From a virus: a DNA stretch of 39,596 nucleotides. A program made the position numbers and the translations under genes. Position 1 is the first letter of the stretch, and each line of letters opens with the position of its first letter. Below the pieces are notes generated by a model. It ran no database searches, was not told the DNA's origin, and saw only the letters and a program-made list of their open reading frames with translations. Below, piece by piece: positions 6,919 through 32,660 of this stretch. The stretch spans positions 1 through 39,596 of IMG/VR virus record IMGVR_UViG_3300025671_000170; one strand, written 5' to 3'.

Positions 6919-7293
6919 CTATTTAATATGTTTTACAAAGTGTCTGTAACAATCAGCCTCGCTCAGAGGTTTTGCCGGCAGGCAAGCTGACATTAAAGGG
7001 CAGCTCTCGTCGTGGTCCTTGCCGTACACAGCGTGCAACACTTCATGAAGTACTACATGTGTTAACTTCTCTGGACCGTAATTAATCGCCTTCTCAGTGA
7101 TCCATAACTTGTTGGCTCTAAGCTTAGCAAGGCCCAGGGTTGCATCGTTGCCTGCTGTTGCATCTCCAACTTTAACCTGGATCCACGGCAGCTGAGTCAT
7201 TCTTTTAGCTTTATAGATTATATCTAATACAGCTCTTTTTAATTTATATGTCTCAGGTGACATTTTTTTATTTTTTATTATTTTATTTTTCAT
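6919..7293 (-). CDS. Putative zinc metallopeptidase (HExxH)
   Basis: This 124-residue protein has HEVLH at residues 83-87, inside VVLHEVLHAVYG, followed by a His at 94 and CPLM. This is the HExxH...H zinc-site arrangement of small metallopeptidases, with one residue more than the strict metzincin spacing. The upstream region (KLWITEKAINYGPEKLTHVV) fits the helix leading to the site. The start at 7293 is chosen for its SD (AAGGAG, 5 bases away); an upstream extension would read through the palindromic promoter at 7315-7343. The substrate is unknown; cleavage of a host or virion protein is inference. It appears to be transcribed alone. Confidence 0.65.
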   Translation of the reverse strand: MKNKIIKNKKMSPETYKLKRAVLDIIYKAKRMTQLPWIQVKVGDATAGNDATLGLAKLRANKLWITEKAINYGPEKLTHVVLHEVLHAVYGKDHDESCPLMSACLPAKPLSEADCYRHFVKHIK

Positions 7294-7314
7294 TTTATCT
7301 CCTTCGTTATAACT

Positions 7315-7343
7315 TTTATATCCCATCTTTATGGGAGATGCAA
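7315..7343 (-). promoter_or_regulatory. Promoter with palindromic operator (class B)
   Basis: On the minus strand there is TTGCAT (7338-7343), a 17-base spacer, then TATAAA (7315-7320). The spacer holds TCCCAT-N4-ATGGGA (7321-7336), so a repressor bound there would block RNA polymerase. It drives the metallopeptidase gene. A second copy of the operator class is at 8138-8153. Confidence 0.6.
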
Positions 7344-7355
7344 GGGCCATACCGT

Positions 7356-7378
7356 CCAAAATGGGTCGTTCATTTTGG
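7356..7378. promoter_or_regulatory. 8-bp inverted repeat CCAAAATG-N7-CATTTTGG
   Basis: These are perfect 8-bp arms (7356-7363 and 7371-7378) just upstream of the class B promoter. On the minus strand TTGACC abuts the repeat. It is a likely second protein-binding site, or the remains of another promoter. Confidence 0.45.
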
Positions 7379-7393
7379 GTCAACTAGACCTGG

Positions 7394-7486
7394 TTAAAAT
7401 AAACATAATAATAAAAACAAAATAAACATGAAAGTTATCGGATAAAAATATAACAACCTTAAAAGTAGTCCAATAAAATTATCCAT
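7394..7486 (-). CDS. 30-aa membrane peptide, copy 2
   Basis: The peptide starts MDNFIGLLLRLLYFYPI and ends in a second hydrophobic run; almost the whole chain could span a membrane. The ATG follows the upstream stop directly (TAAATG at 7489-7484), implying coupled translation. It is a paralogue of the peptide at 11943-12035: 24 of 30 residues are identical, and ten further codons differ only synonymously. That supports selection on the protein, and therefore a real gene despite the size. It is the last gene before the palindromic promoter region. The function is unknown; exclusion of superinfecting phage or lysis timing are guesses. Confidence 0.7.
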   Translation of the reverse strand: MDNFIGLLLRLLYFYPITFMFILFLLLCLF

Positions 7487-7801
7487 TTACAAACCCTCCG
7501 AGAGCTGCAGAATCATTCCGTTTTCATATGGAATCGTTTTAATGGTTTTGTAGTCGTTGTTTTTGTCTACCTGGTCCAAGATCCACGCCCCCTTCTTTTG
7601 GGAAAGTCTATAGCCTGCATTCTCTATTAAATAAGAATGCATTCTGTCTTTTGTGGTCTTCGAGAACCATCCGCCGTTATTTAATCTAATGGTTTTATTT
7701 AAAACATTGTGTTCAATTATTTTTGTTGAATGGTGCACAACGTTAATTGTGTCACCTTCTACAAACGTAGTCGTCTTATATGCTGATTTATATGTAGTCA
7801 T
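7487..7801 (-). CDS. Conserved phage/plasmid-type protein of unknown function, 104 aa
   Basis: This protein contains the segment IRLNNGGWFSKTTKDRMHSYL (about residues 38-58) and a C-terminal TIPYENGMILQL. The pattern GGWF.TTKxRM followed by a short aromatic-rich domain is familiar from small proteins of phages and plasmids of uncharacterised role. The SD AAGGAG lies six bases before the ATG at 7801. It is the middle gene of a three-gene transcript that starts at the class B promoter at 8134-8161 and ends with the 30-residue membrane peptide. Confidence 0.75.
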   Translation of the reverse strand: MTTYKSAYKTTTFVEGDTINVVHHSTKIIEHNVLNKTIRLNNGGWFSKTTKDRMHSYLIENAGYRLSQKKGAWILDQVDKNNDYKTIKTIPYENGMILQLSEGL

Positions 7802-7811
7802 GTATGTCTCC

Positions 7812-8108
7812 TTAATCTAGTAGTGAATAATATTCATTAGTAAAGTATTTTTGAAAAAAGGTGATTCCCTTTTCAAATGCTTTTCTAGAATCCTGGGCCA
7901 TCGGTGTGAAGGGCTGCTGGTCCATAATCACTTCAGCGCCTTTAATCACATCATATACAGCTGCTGCAAACTTAGGCAGGGTCACTGTTACTCCGCTGAA
8001 TGGATTCGTCACCGTTTCAAATTCTGCTGCATTGTCTCTGCTGCAATAGATATCAAACGGGATTTTTATTTTTTTGCCGTTGTATTCAATTGTATCGTTT
8101 CTATTCAT
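7812..8108 (-). CDS. Conserved phage protein of unknown function, 98 aa
   Basis: This protein has a short beta N-terminus (IEYNGKKIKIP), then SRDNAAEFETVTNPFSGVTVTLPKFAAAVYDVI and a C-terminus with FFQKYFTNEYYSLLD. It resembles a family seen in marine phages and plasmid accessory regions, without a known function. I start it at 8108 because of the strong SD (AAAGGAGC) and because the in-frame ATG at 8147 lies inside the operator/promoter. It is the first gene of the transcript. Confidence 0.75.
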   Translation of the reverse strand: MNRNDTIEYNGKKIKIPFDIYCSRDNAAEFETVTNPFSGVTVTLPKFAAAVYDVIKGAEVIMDQQPFTPMAQDSRKAFEKGITFFQKYFTNEYYSLLD

Positions 8109-8133
8109 TTGTGCTCCTTTGTTGATTCGTTCT

Positions 8134-8161
8134 TTTATCCCATCCATATGGGAGATGTCAA
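8134..8161 (-). promoter_or_regulatory. Promoter with palindromic operator (class B)
   Basis: On the minus strand there is TTGACA (8156-8161), 16 bases, then GATAAA (8134-8139). TCCCAT-N4-ATGGGA occupies 8138-8153, overlapping the -10 and the spacer. It directs the 98-, 104- and 30-residue genes. The design is the same as at 7315-7343. Confidence 0.6.
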
Positions 8162-8577
8162 CTTATATTTTATTTAGTTTAAAATTTATTTTTTGCGGGT
8201 ATCTATTAAATAGGGGGTAATGACTCATGAAAAAATAGTTAACTAAACCTGGAGCCCTGGACCTGCAACCGGCCTGGCCGTGGTGGTTGCAGCTGATCCA
8301 GGGTTATTTTTTAAGGCCCATTAAAAAAGGTTAAGACGGTTAGGGAAATTTTTTCCCCTATGCATTTTCGAGATTTACATTTTAATTTGAAAAAAGGTTA
8401 TGCCTAAACGCCTAGCAAGCACCCCTAGCACTTCGAGGGTTTCATTTATAAAGGTTAATATTAATAGGTGCGTGAACGCCCCTACAATCTTCGACGCCCA
8501 CGAGCCACGCCGAAGGCGTGGCGAGTGGTGCGAAAAAATTATTCAAGAAGCGTGGGACGTGGTTATTGCGTCAGCAA
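8162..8577. other. Gene-free region with several strong hairpins
   Basis: No convincing gene lies here. A long hairpin joins CCCTGGA and CTGCAACC (8255-8270) to GGTTGCAG and TCCAGGG (8285-8303), followed on the plus strand by TTATTTTTT, so it is terminator-like in that direction. GCCACGCC-GAA-GGCGTGGC (8504-8522) is a perfect 8-bp stem. ACGTGGT (8557-8563) pairs with ACCACGT (8584-8590), with an inner ATTGC/GCAAT stem. The section 8400-8577 is G+C-richer than its surroundings. A plus-strand frame from about 8400 is open but looks non-protein-like. This is probably the 3' end region of the nuclease transcript, possibly holding a small RNA. Confidence 0.45.
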
Positions 8578-8955
8578 TCACGCACCACGTTGCCAAGTCA
8601 TTTTATCAAAAAATAAAATTAAAGTTGCTTCGGTATCCTCGCCACTTGCAACAAGTTCCACGCTCCTCGTTCCATTCGACTTAAAAAGTTTCAAGAGCTT
8701 CTGCGAGAGGTCTTGAAGCAAGATAAAACTTTGACCACCATTGTTGAAATGGTCAATGTGCCAATTAATTTGATACTTAGATAAGCCCAAATTCTTGTCT
8801 TGATTTGACTTTAATTCTATCCAAATTGACTTGCTATTTTTTAAATAATAGATGTCAGGAATTCCATTAATTGTATTAGATTCTATGCGAAAAATTTGAC
8901 CTTTTAACTTTAGATTTTTAATGCGAAGCCAAAGCTTACTTTCTCTTTTTTTCAT
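8578..8955 (-). CDS. VRR-NUC / Hjc-like PD-(D/E)XK nuclease
   Basis: In this 125-residue protein, GIPDIYYL (about residues 32-39) and SIWIELKSN (about 44-52) give the D and ExK of the PD-(D/E)XK core, with an earlier Glu in RIESNTING. LSKYQINWHIDHFNNGG then matches the helix and turn typical of VRR-NUC and phage Holliday-junction-resolvase-like nucleases. The likely role is cutting branched DNA during replication or packaging, or host DNA breakdown. The start codon lies inside a 12-bp inverted repeat (8953-8985). It is the last gene of a minus-strand group that includes the 198-residue protein. Confidence 0.75.
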   Translation of the reverse strand: MKKRESKLWLRIKNLKLKGQIFRIESNTINGIPDIYYLKNSKSIWIELKSNQDKNLGLSKYQINWHIDHFNNGGQSFILLQDLSQKLLKLFKSNGTRSVELVASGEDTEATLILFFDKMTWQRGA

Positions 8956-8985
8956 AGCCCATTAATAAGTCAATAATGGGCTATG
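8953..8985 (-). promoter_or_regulatory. 12-bp perfect inverted repeat over the nuclease start codon
   Basis: CATAGCCCATTA (8953-8964) is the exact complement of 8974-8985, with a 9-base loop. On the transcript the ATG of the nuclease gene forms the end of the 3' arm, so folding would hide it. A related CTAGCCCA/TGGGCTAG pair lies in the 57-residue gene near 9719-9742. Confidence 0.55.
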
Positions 8986-8996
8986 GTCAATCTAGT

Positions 8997-9593
8997 TTAA
9001 CAAACTTTAAAGCCACCACACTCGTTCAAAAATGCAACAAAATTTTTTACATTTTCTAAAGAAACAGGATAGCTTGAAGTCCTATCCTCACTTTCCCAAA
9101 GCTTATCCCACTTTAATTTTAAGTGAGGTGGGTAATCTCTTGGAATAATATTAGCTTTTGTGGTTTCTTTAATGGCTTGTTTTTTTAACTTTTCCATTTG
9201 TTCTTTTATTTGTGCGTTCCAAAGTTCAGCTTGTTTAGCTTCTTTCTTCCATTGTTGCTCAGCTTTTTTAAGCCAACCATTATTAATTACCTTTTCTAAA
9301 GATAACTTTATTTTAATGGCTTCGAGCTCACTAAATTCAAAGCCACTATTGTCTTGCAATCTTTCTTTTTGCTCATCTGTTAGCCAATCCTCGTTGAGTA
9401 CAGTAATTAAATTTGCGAGAGGTCGCCAAAACCAAACATTGTTTCTAAAATAATAACCAACATTTTCAGCTTCAAATTTTGATAAATCTTCAAAATATTT
9501 ATCTCTTTCTTTTTCTGTTGTTGGTTTATCCCAATCAATCTCAGGTCTTTTACCTTTTATTTTTGGCTTTAAGCCATATACGTCCATACCCAT
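8997..9593 (-). CDS. MGMDVYG-type phage protein, 198 aa
   Basis: It begins MGMDVYGLKP, a start shared by a widespread group of phage and bacterial proteins of unknown function, followed by YYFRNNVWFWRPLANLI. Residues about 90-150 form a long charged coiled-coil (EQQWKKEAKQAELWNAQIKEQ). The C-terminal part (VSLENVKNFVAFLNECGGFKVC) looks globular. The SD GGAGC lies in the end of the upstream gene, one base before which the stop ends, so the two are coupled. It contains no catalytic motif I can name. Confidence 0.75.
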   Translation of the reverse strand: MGMDVYGLKPKIKGKRPEIDWDKPTTEKERDKYFEDLSKFEAENVGYYFRNNVWFWRPLANLITVLNEDWLTDEQKERLQDNSGFEFSELEAIKIKLSLEKVINNGWLKKAEQQWKKEAKQAELWNAQIKEQMEKLKKQAIKETTKANIIPRDYPPHLKLKWDKLWESEDRTSSYPVSLENVKNFVAFLNECGGFKVC

Positions 9594-9594
9594 T

Positions 9595-9768
9595 TTATTT
9601 TGCTCCTTTTTTTATTTGGTTGTCTACTCGTTGAATATTTGCTTTGTCTCGTTCTATTCGTTCTCTATCTTCTTTGGACAAAACAAAAACCTTACTAAGT
9701 GGTTTTGGTCTTAATACACCTAGCCCACTTTTTAATGGGCTAGATGAAGTTGAATTATATTTTTTCAT
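9595..9768 (-). CDS. Small charged protein, 57 aa
   Basis: The Ser-rich N-terminus (MKKYNSTSSSPLKSG) is followed by a charged helix (SKEDRERIERDKANIQRVDNQIKKG). The ATG at 9768 shares a base with the stop of the 104-residue gene (TAATG). I do not recognise it. A CTAGCCCA/TGGGCTAG inverted repeat lies within its coding sequence. Confidence 0.6.
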   Translation of the reverse strand: MKKYNSTSSSPLKSGLGVLRPKPLSKVFVLSKEDRERIERDKANIQRVDNQIKKGAK

Positions 9769-10082
9769 TATAGTATTGTTGTTTTTAAAGAAATCGCTTC
9801 ACTTTCTTTTTTATATTTGTCGTAAGTGTCAGGATTTTCTTTTCTAAAAGTTGTTGTATCAAAGATACTTCTTAATGTTCTTATGATTTCAACAGCAACT
9901 TTTTGTTTTTTATGAGTGAAAAGCTTTTTGCTTTTAACTTGCTCAATAATATACTCTTTTCTTAACTTATGTATTTTATTGATTGTCTTAATCATCTCAT
10001 CATCTTTTGCGTGTTCTAGCACTAATTGGTTTAAAGGTTTTTCTTTAAACTCTTCTACTTGTTTTAATTGTTGACTATTCAT
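9768..10082 (-). CDS. Lysine-rich helical protein, 104 aa
   Basis: This protein is almost entirely charged helix (QVEEFKEKPLNQLVLEHAKDDE, then KIHKLRKEYIIEQVKSKK) and has no cysteines. The SD AAAGGAG lies 7 bases before the ATG at 10082. It is the first gene after the class A operator/promoter at 10125-10153, so it and the three genes that follow (57 aa, 198 aa, nuclease) probably form one regulated transcript. The function is unknown. Confidence 0.7.
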   Translation of the reverse strand: MNSQQLKQVEEFKEKPLNQLVLEHAKDDEMIKTINKIHKLRKEYIIEQVKSKKLFTHKKQKVAVEIIRTLRSIFDTTTFRKENPDTYDKYKKESEAISLKTTIL

Positions 10083-10124
10083 TTGTTAACTCCTTTGTTA
10101 TTTGTTTAGTCTTAAATTAATCAA

Positions 10125-10153
10125 TTTATCTCTTATCTTCATAAGATAGTCAA
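10125..10153 (-). promoter_or_regulatory. Promoter with palindromic operator (class A)
   Basis: On the minus strand there is TTGACT (10148-10153), exactly 17 bases, then GATAAA (10125-10130). The spacer is filled by TCTTAT-N4-ATAAGA (10131-10146). The -35 overlaps the stop codon of the upstream 122-residue gene. It is the clearest example of the class. Confidence 0.65.
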
Positions 10154-10518
10154 GCATTATTATTACTTTGAAGTTCGCTTAATAGTTGTGTTTCTATTTG
10201 TTGCCTAAGTTGTGGGCTATTATGATAGTCTAACCAACCATTTGGCAAATTTAAAGCCAAGTCATTTCTTCTTCTATTAATGCTGATATTATTATAATTA
10301 ATAGTTCTTTCAGTTTTTCTGCCTATAAAATCAATAGCCCTATCGCCATAAATTCCAAACCACTCTTCAAAACAATGTCGAGTACAGAAGTTTCCATTTT
10401 GATAACGCAAACTAGAGTTAACCCTATCGGCTAAATATTTTTCACCACCTACTTTAATAAACCTATCGGCAGTATTATAACCTGAACAATATGGGTTTTG
10501 ACAAACTTTTTTATCCAT
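10150..10518 (-). CDS. Putative zinc-binding protein, 122 aa
   Basis: The N-terminus has CQNPYC (C at about 6 and 11) and residues about 45-50 have CTRHCFEEWFG, giving a C-x4-C...C-x2-H-C pattern that could hold one zinc ion. The rest is Asn/Arg-rich (NYNNISINRRRNDLALN) and ends in a Gln-rich helix. The start is set by an SD (GGTGG) and an 8-base overlap with the 54-residue gene upstream. The function is unknown; binding to nucleic acid or to a host protein is possible. Confidence 0.7.
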   Translation of the reverse strand: MDKKVCQNPYCSGYNTADRFIKVGGEKYLADRVNSSLRYQNGNFCTRHCFEEWFGIYGDRAIDFIGRKTERTINYNNISINRRRNDLALNLPNGWLDYHNSPQLRQQIETQLLSELQSNNNA

Positions 10519-10675
10519 TTTGTACCACCTTTTTTAATTTATACTTTTTTATTGATATGACATTTTTAGAAATATATGGGTCTATATTTTCTAATTCTTC
10601 AAAACTTGTTTGAAGTGTTGCGTTAGGTTTTTTCTTTTTAAATATATCTAATATATTAAATAGTTTTATTTTCAT
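10511..10675 (-). CDS. Small basic protein, 54 aa
   Basis: The frame begins MKIKLFNILDIFKKKKPN and ends YKLKKVVQNG. The SD AGGAG lies 7 bases before the ATG at 10675, immediately after the stop of the 80-residue gene. Its end overlaps the next start by 8 bases. I do not recognise it; spacing and SD make it a credible gene. Confidence 0.6.
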   Translation of the reverse strand: MKIKLFNILDIFKKKKPNATLQTSFEELENIDPYISKNVISIKKYKLKKVVQNG

Positions 10676-10678
10676 TTT

Positions 10679-10921
10679 TTACTCCTCTTGTTTGTTTTCT
10701 ATTTTTGCAAACTCTTCTAAAAATTTTTCTATCTTTTTAAAAGTAGTTTTATCTATACTGTCCTGATCTACCCACTCGGTACTCCAAGTGTCGTCTGAGT
10801 GTTGCCACTCTACTGCAATATTCCAAGATTTTATTTTTTTAAGTGCCATAAGCTTTCTTGTTGTGCGAGTGGTTGTTAGCCACTCGCTTTTTTGTTTAGC
10901 CGTTTGCTTGTTGTTTTTCAT
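10679..10921 (-). CDS. Small protein, 80 aa
   Basis: The lysine-rich start (MKNNKQTAKQKSEWLTTTRTTRK) is followed by SWNIAVEWQHSDDTWSTEWV, a Trp-rich beta segment, and an acidic C-terminal helix. It overlaps the 330-residue gene by 26 bases in another frame and belongs to the same transcript. There is no recognisable family. Confidence 0.6.
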   Translation of the reverse strand: MKNNKQTAKQKSEWLTTTRTTRKLMALKKIKSWNIAVEWQHSDDTWSTEWVDQDSIDKTTFKKIEKFLEEFAKIENKQEE

Positions 10922-11888
10922 AAAGCAATCTAGCTTTTATTTTGTCCTCTCTTGTTTGTTTTTTGTTTTTCATTGCTTGAAGTAAAGAAGCCACATTATT
11001 CGGATTGAATACTGTAAGTGCTGAGGAGTTTTCTTTTATCTCTTCAACTTCTTTTAAATCAAGATTTAAAGTTTTAGCCAACTCAAACGCTTCATCAAAG
11101 TATTTATAACTATGAAGAGATTGTTTGATTATTTTCATTTGGTCTAAAATAGTATTTATCCAAATAGCGTGGGTATCAATAACTTTTTGTTTTGCCATTA
11201 ACCATTTTTCTAATACTTCTATTTCTGTATTGTCTGCTTTTAATAATCTACTACTGCAATAATTAGAGCCCAAAACTTCAAGCTCAAAATTTTTAGCGTA
11301 GTTATGAAGAATACAGTTTTCATTTTTTGGGTTAGCAAATCCAAAAAATTTATCGTTAGCATCTACAAATTTTCTTTTGTATGGGCTATCGCTTTCTTGT
11401 TCAATCATAATATCAGGATTACAATTAGGTTGTGCTTTCAGTTCTTCTCTATACATAGCGAAAGCAAAATCGCTTTGATTGTCATAAGAACAACCTGTTG
11501 TTGACCCTCTTAAACCAAAGTCAAAATGTTTGTCTTGTGGTTTTACTACTTTGATTGTTTCGTTTTGATTTGTGTGTGAGTTGTATCTTCTTTCCTCTAC
11601 TTCTGTGGTAAAAGAAAAATTAAAGCACCTATCTTTTCTATAAATGTCTATGTTTTCAAATTTATCAGAAAGATATTTTGCTTTTTCAACATCTTCTTTT
11701 GGATAAACTCTTGAAACAATTTGTCTTGCTGTCTCAAAAGCTGTTTTTTCCATTAAAGGATACTCTTCTCTTGATTTAAAAAAAGCTTCCTTTTCTTGTG
11801 TGTTTTCATTTTCTAAATGATTTTTGAATTGAATAGTTAACCTATTTCTAATCTCAGCATTTAGTCTTATTCGTTTTTGTTTTTGCAT
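10896..11888 (-). CDS. Large protein of unknown function, 330 aa
   Basis: The N-terminal basic helices (KRIRLNAEIRNRLTIQF) precede a beta-rich middle (residues about 85-140, CFNFSFTTEVEERRYN, KHFDFGLRGSTTGC), a Cys-containing section, and a C-terminal helical domain with long coiled-coil potential ending in NPNNVASLLQAMKNKKQTREDKIKARL. I do not recognise the family. Its leader is unusual: a class A operator and then a 10-bp hairpin that buries the whole SD (11894-11921). It is the first gene of a transcript with the 80-, 54- and 122-residue proteins, so this group appears tightly controlled. Confidence 0.75.
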   Translation of the reverse strand: MQKQKRIRLNAEIRNRLTIQFKNHLENENTQEKEAFFKSREEYPLMEKTAFETARQIVSRVYPKEDVEKAKYLSDKFENIDIYRKDRCFNFSFTTEVEERRYNSHTNQNETIKVVKPQDKHFDFGLRGSTTGCSYDNQSDFAFAMYREELKAQPNCNPDIMIEQESDSPYKRKFVDANDKFFGFANPKNENCILHNYAKNFELEVLGSNYCSSRLLKADNTEIEVLEKWLMAKQKVIDTHAIWINTILDQMKIIKQSLHSYKYFDEAFELAKTLNLDLKEVEEIKENSSALTVFNPNNVASLLQAMKNKKQTREDKIKARLLYEKQQANG

Positions 11889-11893
11889 TTTTT

Positions 11894-11921
11894 ACTCCTT
11901 TTTCGTTTTTTAAAAAGGAGT
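11894..11921 (-). promoter_or_regulatory. SD-sequestering hairpin
   Basis: On the transcript, ACTCCTTTTT pairs perfectly over 10 bp with AAAAAGGAGT, which contains the SD of the 330-residue gene (plus-strand arms 11894-11903 and 11912-11921, loop of 8). Folding would hide the ribosome site 5 bases before the ATG. Confidence 0.65.
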
Positions 11922-11946
11922 TATCTTATCTAAATAAGATTGTCAA
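11918..11946 (-). promoter_or_regulatory. Class A operator with adjoining -35
   Basis: TCTTAT-N4-ATAAGA (11924-11939) has TTGACA one base away (revcomp 11941-11946). The hexamer at 17-base spacing (TAACTC) is a poor -10, so an activator or another polymerase site may be involved. The -35 overlaps the stop of the membrane peptide gene. Confidence 0.55.
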
Positions 11947-12035
11947 ATTAAAAATAATAGAAGAAATATGATAAATAAGAAAGGTATTGGGTAAAAATAT
12001 AAAAGTCTCAACAAAATTCCAATAAAATTGTCCAT
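11943..12035 (-). CDS. 30-aa membrane peptide, copy 1
   Basis: The peptide starts MDNFIGILLRLLYFYPI and continues with a Phe/Ile/Leu run, so nearly the whole chain is hydrophobic with one Arg and one Asp near the N-terminus. Twenty-four residues are identical to the copy at 7394-7486. As in that copy, it ends a transcript and its stop touches the next palindromic promoter. GAGGTG lies directly before the ATG, a close but possible SD. It sits in the membrane by prediction; the role is unknown. Confidence 0.7.
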   Translation of the reverse strand: MDNFIGILLRLLYFYPIPFLFIIFLLLFLI

Positions 12036-12069: not shown

Positions 12070-12366
12070 CTAAATTTTTTTAATTTCAACTATAACGCTA
12101 TTTGGAATAATAGTAGTATTGCCTACTTCTTCTATATCTGTTTTTGAATTATCTTTTAAAGAGTAATCGCCAAATATTCTAGTAATACCTTTTGATTGAC
12201 TTAATAAATGTCCTTTAGTTATGCAAGTAGCAAGTTTTGTATTTTTTAAATTATCTATGCTTTGCCAACTTGCGTCTGAAACAATATCCAACCAACGACA
12301 TTCAACCATTGGATATTTTTCTAAATCTGATTTTATTTTTTTATTTATTTTTATTTTTCTTTTCAT
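12070..12366 (-). CDS. Phage protein of unknown function, 98 aa
   Basis: The basic N-terminus (MKRKIKINKKIKSDLEKYP) is followed by MVECRWLDIVSDASWQS and a C-terminal DIEEVGNTTIIPNSVIVEIKKI. The order of a VECRWLD strand, a TKGHLL turn and a TIIPNSVI end is seen in small beta-fold phage proteins without an assigned role. It follows the duplicated 11-residue peptide frame and precedes the membrane peptide. Confidence 0.65.
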   Translation of the reverse strand: MKRKIKINKKIKSDLEKYPMVECRWLDIVSDASWQSIDNLKNTKLATCITKGHLLSQSKGITRIFGDYSLKDNSKTDIEEVGNTTIIPNSVIVEIKKI

Positions 12367-12433
12367 AAAAATTTTCCCCTATCAATTTCCAAGGTTTCAT
12401 TTTATTTTCCCCTATGAATTTCCAAGGTTTCAT
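12341..12433 (-). CDS. 30-aa peptide with duplicated 11-residue unit
   Basis: The frame reads MKPWKFIGENK, then MKPWKLIGENF, then YEKKNKNK. Its ATG overlaps the preceding stop as ATGA (12430-12433) and its end overlaps the 98-residue gene by 26 bases. Each repeat unit has its own ATG, and GGGG before the next start may serve as a ribosome site. It could be a small basic protein or a leader peptide controlling the next gene. Confidence 0.4.
   Translation of the reverse strand: MKPWKFIGENKMKPWKLIGENFYEKKNKNK
12368..12433 (-). repeat. Tandem 33-bp duplication
   Basis: Units at 12401-12433 and 12368-12400 match at 29 of 33 positions. The length is a multiple of three, so the reading frame is kept. 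A partial match to the TTTTCCCCTAT part lies at about 8350. Confidence 0.8.
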
Positions 12434-12531
12434 TTTATTTTTATACTTACAGTTCCAACAGAAGTACACATTCCTGGGTTATGCACTTCATTAAAAACCT
12501 GGATGAAAGAATGCCAATCGTTATTCTTCAA
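12430..12531 (-). CDS. Possible 33-aa peptide starting at TTG
   Basis: This frame has a protein-like sequence (NNDWHSFIQVFNEVHNPGMC) and ends with TGA overlapping the next ATG. The only plausible start is a TTG overlapping the end of the TerS gene. The coupling arrangement favours a gene, the rare start weakens it. Confidence 0.3.
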   Translation of the reverse strand: MKNNDWHSFIQVFNEVHNPGMCTSVGTVSIKIK

Positions 12532-13033
12532 TAACTTTATTTGGCGTGACGTCAATAATGTTTTTGGCTTCTCCGATTTTACTTTCAAGTTCGGATAAGC
12601 GCTTCTCCAATTGCTCACGTGACATACCCTCCAATCCAACATGTGTTATCTGTGCTTTACTTACAAACATATCTGCCATTTGGCCAGCTCGATATTCTGC
12701 GTTTACCGCTACACCTAACTGTCCTTTGTCCTCTGCTTTTTTAGACAAATGGTCAAATCTTTTATATTTTCTTAATTTATCTTTTTCGTATATTTGTAAT
12801 TCTTTTTGTAATTTCATTTCCATATATCTGCATACATGTGGATTGACATCAGGATTAGTTAATCTTGATGCTATTTCAGTGGGACCATATTTACTGCTAG
12901 ATTTATACCCTGCCATCTCTGCAGCTTTAACCTTAGTCATTTGGCCATAGTTCTCTACATAGATATCAACAAACATCTTTTGCCTTGGCGTGAGCTCAGT
13001 AATTGATTTTAATGCGTTTTTCTTTTTACCCAT
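12521..13033 (-). CDS. terS: Terminase small subunit
   Basis: This 170-residue protein has the N-terminal DNA-binding signature of phage small terminases: ELTPRQKMFVDIYVENYGQ, AAEMAGYKSSS and EIASRLTNPDVNPHV (residues about 13-70). A helical oligomerisation region with LQKELQIYEKDKLRKY and a C-terminal coiled coil (MSREQLEKRLSELESKIG) follow. TerS recognises the packaging site and loads TerL. Unusually it lies more than 6 kb from terL, with some 15 small genes between, next to an AT-rich iteron region that could contain the packaging or replication site. The ATG at 13033 is the first in the frame. Confidence 0.88.
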   Translation of the reverse strand: MGKKKNALKSITELTPRQKMFVDIYVENYGQMTKVKAAEMAGYKSSSKYGPTEIASRLTNPDVNPHVCRYMEMKLQKELQIYEKDKLRKYKRFDHLSKKAEDKGQLGVAVNAEYRAGQMADMFVSKAQITHVGLEGMSREQLEKRLSELESKIGEAKNIIDVTPNKVIEE

Positions 13034-15999: not shown

Positions 16000-16026
16000 A
16001 AACTTTTTTTCTTCTATTGCAAGTCA

Positions 16027-16206
16027 TTATTTTTTAGCAAGGGTCACACGACCTGTTTTATCTCTAGATCTATCTGACCATACACAATTAATTTCTAATG
16101 TTGAGTCATCTGCTGATACTAAAGTAATCTTATGTCCTGTTGGCGTATCTTCAATATAATGCCTAACATAGTTAGTATACTCCATCCAACCATTACCTTT
16201 TTTCAT
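16027..16206 (-). CDS. Small protein, 59 aa
   Basis: The protein reads MKKGNGWMEYTNYVRHYIE, then a beta-rich part (HKITLVSADDSTLEINCVWSD) and a basic end. It overlaps the membrane-peptide stop upstream by 14 bases. I do not recognise it, but the amino-acid pattern is protein-like. Confidence 0.6.
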   Translation of the reverse strand: MKKGNGWMEYTNYVRHYIEDTPTGHKITLVSADDSTLEINCVWSDRSRDKTGRVTLAKK

Positions 16207-31808: not shown

Positions 31809-32660
31809 TTAAGTACCTGCCGGTCTAGTCATTTGATAAGCAGAGTAAGCACCTAAGCCTGTTCCCAAAGCTTGAGCTAACGGATTAGTTCCGGGAGCCG
31901 TGGATGCTGTAATCGTACTTTGAGTTGTTGGTAAATTTGTCATAATACCTTTTAAGAATTCTATTCTTTGATAAGGTTCGTATTGAGCTTGCAACTGACT
32001 TTGTCTTGCAGCTTCTAATCCTGCTTGGCCAATTTGTCTTTGTACTCCACCAATACCCATTAGAGTATTAAGATCTTGTACTCTCATAGCTTGTTGTTGA
32101 CCACCAAGAGCACCTAATAATTGTCCTGCCTGTAATCCTAATTGTTGCTGTTGTGTTGCAGCTTGTAGTGCTGTATTAAATCCTGTTTGTTGTGCTAAAC
32201 CTATTTGGCTTAATCTTGCTCTTTCTAATTCTCCTTGAGCAACGCCTTGTCTGCCACCACCAAATGCACCTGCTCCAATAGCTTGTGCCGCTAGGTTTTG
32301 TTGTCCTAGTGCTGCTTGCCTATTAATCTCTTGAGTTACATATTGTTGATATGGATTAAAGAATTGAGAAATTTGTGGCCCTTGTTGTGCAGCTTGAATA
32401 GCACTAATACCACCCGCTACTGTAGGTGCACCAACACCAATTTGTCCTGCTTGTTGAAATGCTTGTTGTTCTAATGCTGTTGCAGGTGCAACTTGTATGC
32501 TTGGTAAAGATACAGGTGCTGCAGCTAGTTTAGCAGCTTGATCATATAGGGATAGCTTACGTGCTTCTACTTCAGGTGCCTCTCTTTGAGTCACCATCTG
32601 TGATCCCGATTCTGTTGGAGCTGGCGCTCCGCCACCTCCGCCACCAAATATAAAACTCAT
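31809..32660 (-). CDS. Gln/Ala-rich internal virion protein candidate, 283 aa
   Basis: It starts MSFIFGGGGGGAPAPTESG and then is strongly Gln/Ala/Gly-rich (QQAGQIGVGAPTVAGG, QFFNPYQQYVTQEINRQAA, GAFGGGRQGVAQGELERARL). The NPYQQYV followed by a QEI helix is a pattern that recurs in marine podovirus genes next to ejection proteins. It is predicted helical and low complexity, with no catalytic motif. The start overlaps the GNAT-like gene by 4 bases (ATGA). It is probably packaged inside the capsid or at the neck. Confidence 0.6.
   Translation of the reverse strand: MSFIFGGGGGGAPAPTESGSQMVTQREAPEVEARKLSLYDQAAKLAAAPVSLPSIQVAPATALEQQAFQQAGQIGVGAPTVAGGISAIQAAQQGPQISQFFNPYQQYVTQEINRQAALGQQNLAAQAIGAGAFGGGRQGVAQGELERARLSQIGLAQQTGFNTALQAATQQQQLGLQAGQLLGALGGQQQAMRVQDLNTLMGIGGVQRQIGQAGLEAARQSQLQAQYEPYQRIEFLKGIMTNLPTTQSTITASTAPGTNPLAQALGTGLGAYSAYQMTRPAGT

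Follow-up and report, generated by a model that had tools for sequence, protein, structure and literature searches.

Two fixed slots of HTVC023P-type pelagiphage genomes encode a family of ~30-residue hydrophobic microproteins

The viral record IMGVR_UViG_3300025671_000170 (39,596 nucleotides; hereafter the window, meaning the whole stretch of DNA that was analysed) encodes two hydrophobic peptides of 30 residues, here called A and B. Its large terminase shares 82% identity with that of Pelagibacter phage HTVC023P and at most 61% with the next listed isolates. On the basis of this identity and of the size of the record (39.6 kb), the window is assigned to the HTVC023P-type pelagiphages. Pelagiphages are the viruses of SAR11, the most abundant bacteria of the ocean; many of the 80 complete pelagiphage genomes in PMC9599517 belong to the HTVC023P type. 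Here we report that phages of this type encode a family of ~30-residue hydrophobic microproteins, present in two copies that occupy two fixed slots. Conservation of both slots across the group, matching of A and B within genomes and recurrent replacement of alleles all go beyond the original prediction, which had described the two window peptides.

Peptides A and B are identical at 24 of 30 residues. Differences affect 16 sense codons, 10 of which carry synonymous changes only, and also the stop codons; our recount gave the same residue and codon figures as the original prediction. When peptide B was codon-shuffled, identities to A averaged 5.2 and never exceeded 16 of 30 (20,000 trials), so the likeness is not due to chance. 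Moreover, A and B are the only hydrophobic open reading frames (ORFs) of 25–40 amino acids (aa) that follow any of the 44 long coding-strand ORFs of the window. The coordinates first given for the two frames (Table 1) are right but their strand had been missed: both are read from the minus strand, and the plus-strand translations are riddled with stop codons.

Relatives were found by degenerate DNA patterns in IMG/VR and by neighbour-gene searches with the terminase and with the 98-aa gene that precedes peptide B. A first core pattern was discarded because it mostly gave chance matches with unrelated ORFs. The final pattern, which fixes the first 16 codons only and leaves the downstream length free, recovered 97 viral stretches encoding 64 distinct peptides, all of 29–32 residues and without frame loss. 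The original prediction, which was to fall if homologues were lacking or carried damaged frames, is thus not refuted on this count. In 257 gigabases of bacterial and archaeal genomes the same pattern occurred at five places. These look like chance matches, as readable frames occur at four of them and measure 1, 46, 50 and 265 aa. Profile searches of whole records detected exactly two copies in the complete HTVC023P genome and in four large IMG/VR genomes of 46.5–61.6 kb (G001, G002, G003 and G005; a third, 11-residue match in G003, E 0.009, was left out of the count), and no copy in HTVC027P, 023Pt_psg01, HTVC103P or three more distant records. The HTVC023P copies are located at 12922–13011 and 16000–16086 of MN698239 and both are absent from the GenBank annotation, in line with the expectation that such genes escape gene callers. 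The tblastn search proposed earlier, with the 30-residue sequence against a phage collection, found nothing although HTVC023P has two relatives, probably due to low-complexity filtering and to query length.

The two genes occupy fixed positions. In almost every positive locus, slot B begins 28–42 nucleotides (nt) past the 98-aa gene; the distance is 4 nt in L149 and L151. The gene next before the terminase cluster has slot A at its stop codon, either overlapping or directly adjoining it; this gene is usually a member of the GP88 family (PF17338) and, in L005, a 166-aa phrog_36747 gene. A short hydrophobic ORF was found in slot A in 34 of 40 testable GP88 loci. Inspection of the remaining six revealed peptides in three (L056, L059 and L145) and a peptide with a TTG start in L151; L144 retains a 17-residue remnant, and L218 has none. 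We defined the family, the pelagiphage FYP microproteins, as peptides of 28–36 aa, in slot A or slot B, with the motif M-x-x-[FL]-[LI]-[AG]-h-h-x-R-x-h-h-F-[YF]-P, which both window peptides contain; its consensus reads M-D-x-F-[IL]-A-F-h-x-R-h-h-h-F-[YF]-P, followed by ~14 hydrophobic residues. The motif is missing from some slot occupants, namely the 'WKE' peptides of L155 and L159 and the occupant in L065.

Several observations adjoin this picture. TTG or GTG starts seem to be used by some slot members (L149, L151 and L154), which are therefore missed by ATG-only searches. In L144, a close relative of the window, slot A has shrunk near position 760 to the 17-residue hydrophobic frame MHNVIIFFMLIAIIAIF. 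In more distant phages (L188, L212, L214, L185, L193, L215, L216 and L222), other short hydrophobic peptides, centred on [F/I/S]-P-[K/R/E], are encoded ~2–9 kb upstream of the terminase. Several of them overlap the stop codon of the preceding gene; together with the FYP family these peptides perhaps form a wider superfamily. Two further ORFs were set aside as doubtful, a 51-aa hydrophobic ORF near the 98-aa homologue of HTVC027P and a 20-aa hydrophobic ORF in L188. GP88 plus a small membrane peptide was rejected as a general phage module: a small hydrophobic ORF follows 2 of 7 GP88 loci of other phages, and window peptide A follows a Kyano_Gp96 gene.

The ratio of nonsynonymous to synonymous substitution rates (dN/dS) is 0.10–0.28 in most orthologue groups and 0.43 in one; for the A/B pair of the window it is 0.12. 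Synonymous sites saturate while residues stay conserved. These low ratios bear out the earlier claim of selection on the protein and argue that the peptides are translated, constrained proteins under strong purifying selection. The claim that they are of membrane type also agrees with prediction. Hydropathy over 16-residue windows is ~2.2–3.3, as expected for a hydrophobic membrane-spanning segment. The AlphaFold2 model is all-helical, with helices at residues 3–14 and 16–29, a break near Pro16 and a mean predicted local distance difference test score of 91. It is compatible with a helical hairpin, either interfacial or short and membrane-spanning, or with one kinked helix. No relative of the peptides was detected in Pfam, NCBIfam, PADLOC or PDB sequences, nor in PHROGs for the window pair.

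Similarity between A and B is higher within a genome than across genomes. Among 31 genomes with distinct pairs, the normalised similarity of own A and B is 0.518, compared to 0.418 for pairs of different genomes (permutation, z 8.0); the excess persists in the 23 pairs with the canonical motif (z 5.4). Codon identity at identical residues is 39.3% in own pairs and 39.5% in foreign pairs, indicating that matching occurs at the protein level and does not come from recent conversion or duplication. Recent gene conversion was accordingly dropped as its source; ancient conversion followed by saturation is possible. A single ancient duplication would leave own A no nearer to own B than to other Bs. 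Co-adaptation, of A and B to each other or to one partner, is the likely origin. In HTVC023P, both peptides contain IAFIFRA-x-x-FYP. L149 has the matched pair MLDKLIAHVILFLMYRPI and MLDYIIALLIIFMINHPI, L154 (where B has a GTG start) shares FFAY...N-x-PI between A and B, and L310 shares MDNFIAFL-x-RLI-x-FF-P.

Comparison of close relatives shows that these ORFs are repeatedly replaced by different hydrophobic peptides while the flanks stay constant. Between the window and L065, the 200 nt to either side of slot B are ~96% identical, yet the ORF encodes, from start to stop, a different 32-residue hydrophobic peptide. More than 4 kb of L248 and L260 are ~100% identical, the exceptions being peptide A and some 100–300 nt behind it. 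L310 differs strongly from L122 and its relatives at both A and B, in surrounding DNA that is mostly 85–100% identical; other variable islands also separate L310 and L122. Further cases are L272/L278, L160/L163 and L299/L304. L144, whose terminase is 97% identical, has the same downstream flank as the window but carries GP88 upstream and the 17-residue remnant. Since near-clonal phages presumably share a host, such swaps point to diversifying or frequency-dependent selection, as in superinfection exclusion or defence evasion; self/non-self or defence-related selection fits them better than adaptation to a housekeeping target of the host.

The regions downstream of the slots are structured (Table 1). 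The earlier claim that an inverted-repeat promoter follows each copy holds for the palindromes, which are present after both; their promoter role is plausible but not established. Generic promoter matches are no commoner in the region than in shuffled sequences (26 versus 26.1). A palindrome framed by -35 and -10 elements was found in 19 of 101 downstream regions versus 3.7 in shuffles, many of these palindromes being the hairpin stems themselves. Each window copy is followed by a candidate promoter whose spacer is palindromic. A similar copy of the TCCCAT/ATGGGA palindrome lies in a repeat at 8133–8157. The inverted repeat at 11894–11921 would pair with, and sequester, the AAGGAG that precedes the 330-aa gene at 10896–11888, a possible translational switch. 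Folding is stronger than in shuffles (z < -2) in 61% of 94 distinct regions 3' of the slots. A constant box, TTAGAA-N3-TTCTAA, covers the peptide stop codon in 36 regions, each assigned to site A from the preceding peptide; in most of them a strong hairpin comes next, whose arms co-vary by eye, the stem varying with pairing kept. The conserved box and hairpin support the proposal that the peptide gene comes last in its transcript. Box and hairpin are seen behind different peptide alleles, mostly with no T-run after them, in L169, L172, L182, L257, L273 and ~30 more; one such hairpin is ACAGCCC-CACAACC-TGGGGCTGT. Rfam gave no match in the region.

Table 1. Peptide genes, their upstream neighbours and downstream repeats in the window.
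Feature	Position	Strand	Remarks
Peptide A, 30 aa, MDNFIGLLLRLLYFYPITFMFILFLLLCLF	7394..7486	minus	ATG abuts TAA of upstream gene (0-nt gap); GGAGG 8 nt before ATG
Peptide B, 30 aa, MDNFIGILLRLLYFYPIPFLFIIFLLLFLI	11943..12035	minus	Start 34 nt past 98-aa gene
Gene upstream of peptide A, 104 aa, Kyano_Gp96 family (PF23790)	7487..7801	minus	
Gene upstream of peptide B, 98 aa, phrog_25889	12070..12366	minus	Constant neighbour of slot B
Hairpin CCAAAATG-N7-CATTTTGG after peptide A	7356..7378	minus	8-bp arms; 101-nt region z -1.1, slightly better than shuffles
Palindrome TCCCAT-N4-ATGGGA after peptide A	7321..7336	minus	In 17-nt spacer of candidate TTGCAT/TATAAA promoter of next gene
Palindrome ATCTTAT-N4-ATAAGAT right after peptide B stop	11923..11940	minus	Preceded by TTGACA, which overlaps the stop codon
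Inverted repeat ACTCCTTTTT-N8-AAAAAGGAGT after peptide B	11894..11921	minus	10-bp arms; 67-nt region z -5.8

The surroundings of the two genes show further features. The 330-aa gene is very similar in the window and L065 except for a divergent middle patch of ~180 nt (alignment columns 880–1060), another local replacement. The gene after peptide A (6919–7383) has an HEXXH-type motif and a weak SprT-like match, and its HTVC023P counterpart a weak matrixin match; it may encode a small metallopeptidase. In several phage groups, small hydrophobic peptides are followed by a recurring gene of ~199 aa, of the 'MGFDLYG' family (window 8997–9593; HTVC023P gp23, L060:4078–4677). Judged by size and place, HTVC027P gp33 is likely a relative of it; gp33 is reported as highly expressed early to middle (PMC12753301). 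Finally, a 33-nt repeat, ATTTTCCCCTATGAATTTCCAAGGTTTCATTTT, stands in tandem at 12371–12436, with a third, diverged copy 4 kb off at 8350–8382.

None of the roles listed in the original prediction (toxin-like, exclusion, anti-holin or signalling) is established, and no known family matches. We tentatively favour, as the leading candidate rather than as a settled function, that the two products are paired inner-membrane peptides acting in superinfection exclusion. In the inner membrane, each peptide would take the form of a short helix pair with its break at Pro16, and Arg10 would face the cytoplasm. A and B would supply the same activity from two transcription units and would either oligomerise together or bind a common membrane partner. 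Related short-tailed phages could thereby no longer bring their DNA across the membrane of the infected SAR11 cell, and the allele type would determine which phages are shut out. A more elaborate version, which we regard as doubtful, is a two-gene membrane specificity code in which matched allele types, fitted to each other or to a common partner and exchanged by recombination among the most abundant phages of the ocean, decide phage entry into the infected SAR11 cell.

In P22, the exclusion protein SieA occurs in three sequence types with less than 30% identity (PMC10883804), showing that inner-membrane exclusion proteins of short-tailed phages can take very different sequence types. Several points nevertheless weigh against exclusion, which is the weakest link of the favoured reading. 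The SieA sequence types tested there did not differ in target specificity, so that sequence type need not equal exclusion type (PMC10883804). PHROGs, Pfam, NCBIfam and PADLOC gave no match to an exclusion family. We know of no exclusion proteins this small. A and B are unlike each other in L155, L159, L172 and L167, so that the matching is a trend with exceptions. In the L248/L260 swap, L260 stops short of slot B and the change seen is that of A. Membrane insertion, A–B contact and exclusion are steps that we infer.

A less probable but serious candidate is a lysis-timing pair, that is a tiny holin or pinholin with its antiholin, forming hetero-oligomers in the inner membrane, where matching would reflect partner specificity. 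Holins are diverse and often replaced. At least one membrane-spanning helix, as required of a holin, is predicted from both sequence and model; the predicted helices are short and hydrophobic, the pairs are matched within genomes, and two transcription units would permit different timing. In HTVC023P, however, the endolysin gp49 (phrog_894) is encoded at 31842–32318, ~16–19 kb from the peptides at 12922 and 16000, and neither peptide gene adjoins it as a lysis-cassette gene would. Other membrane proteins of this phage are available as holin, namely gp48, which adjoins the endolysin, gp33 and gp84. A distant endolysin with its own membrane-protein neighbour speaks against a classical holin; moreover, no holin family matched and the peptides are smaller than the holins we know of.

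Alternatively, both peptides could bind the same host membrane protein, such as a protease, a translocase or a membrane-bound defence protein, as modulators or anti-defence factors, with A and B tracking that target; this is about as probable as the lysis-timing pair. The size of the peptides is that of bacterial single-helix regulators, A and B match in protein and not in DNA, and slot A adjoins variable accessory genes. Replacement between near-identical phages, presumably of the same host, would be unexpected for a housekeeping target but is compatible with defence evasion; PADLOC gave no match.

Type I toxin-like membrane peptides of the TisB/Ibs/Hok size class, depolarising the cell, are improbable. 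At 29–32 aa the peptides fall below the ~60-aa limit of short hydrophobic toxins and occur in two copies per genome; TisB-class toxins are of comparable length and hydrophobicity. The genes do have strong hairpins 3' of them, but no antisense RNA was identified and Rfam gave no match in the region. Translation appears coupled to the upstream genes through stop/start overlap, and a stabilisation toxin has no obvious use in a phage type described as lytic (PMC12753301). That the conserved feature is an RNA element and the hydrophobic peptides a by-product is very improbable: conserved RNA-like hairpins and the constant box do lie directly past the slot, but the hairpins are outside the ORF, and 29–32 codons are kept in 64 distinct forms without frame loss, with dN/dS of 0.10–0.28 in most groups at saturated synonymous sites.

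Together, these results describe a conserved, doubly encoded and rapidly exchanged family missed by annotation even in the cultured phage HTVC023P, and provide a testable candidate for phage competition inside SAR11 cells. Matching at the protein level predicts that A and B interact or share a partner. Matched copies that close relatives swap look as if they settled a self/non-self matter at the host membrane. More generally, slot conservation, and not ORF callers, can find and validate phage genes of ~30 residues.

Among known systems, the peptides recall the toxins TisB, Ibs, Ldr and ZorO, hydrophobic peptides of ~18–35 residues, sometimes repeated per genome; unlike them, they are apparently translated in coupling with phage genes and are kept across a phage group described as lytic. 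They also resemble KdpF, AcrZ, MgtS and CydX, which are single-helix microproteins of ~30–50 residues, usually missed in annotation, but differ from these in being phage-encoded, paired and rapidly replaced. With holin/antiholin pairs and small single-span lysis proteins they share being small, hydrophobic, paired, diverse and replaceable. Like P22 SieA, T4 Imm and HK97 gp15, to which no sequence relation was found, they are phage-encoded, probably inner-membrane proteins of phages with a trans-envelope ejection conduit. Proteins of the SieA/Imm/gp15 type are larger, have several spans, are present in one copy and are often expressed from prophages, whereas the pelagiphage peptides have 28–36 residues and occur in two copies in a group described as lytic.

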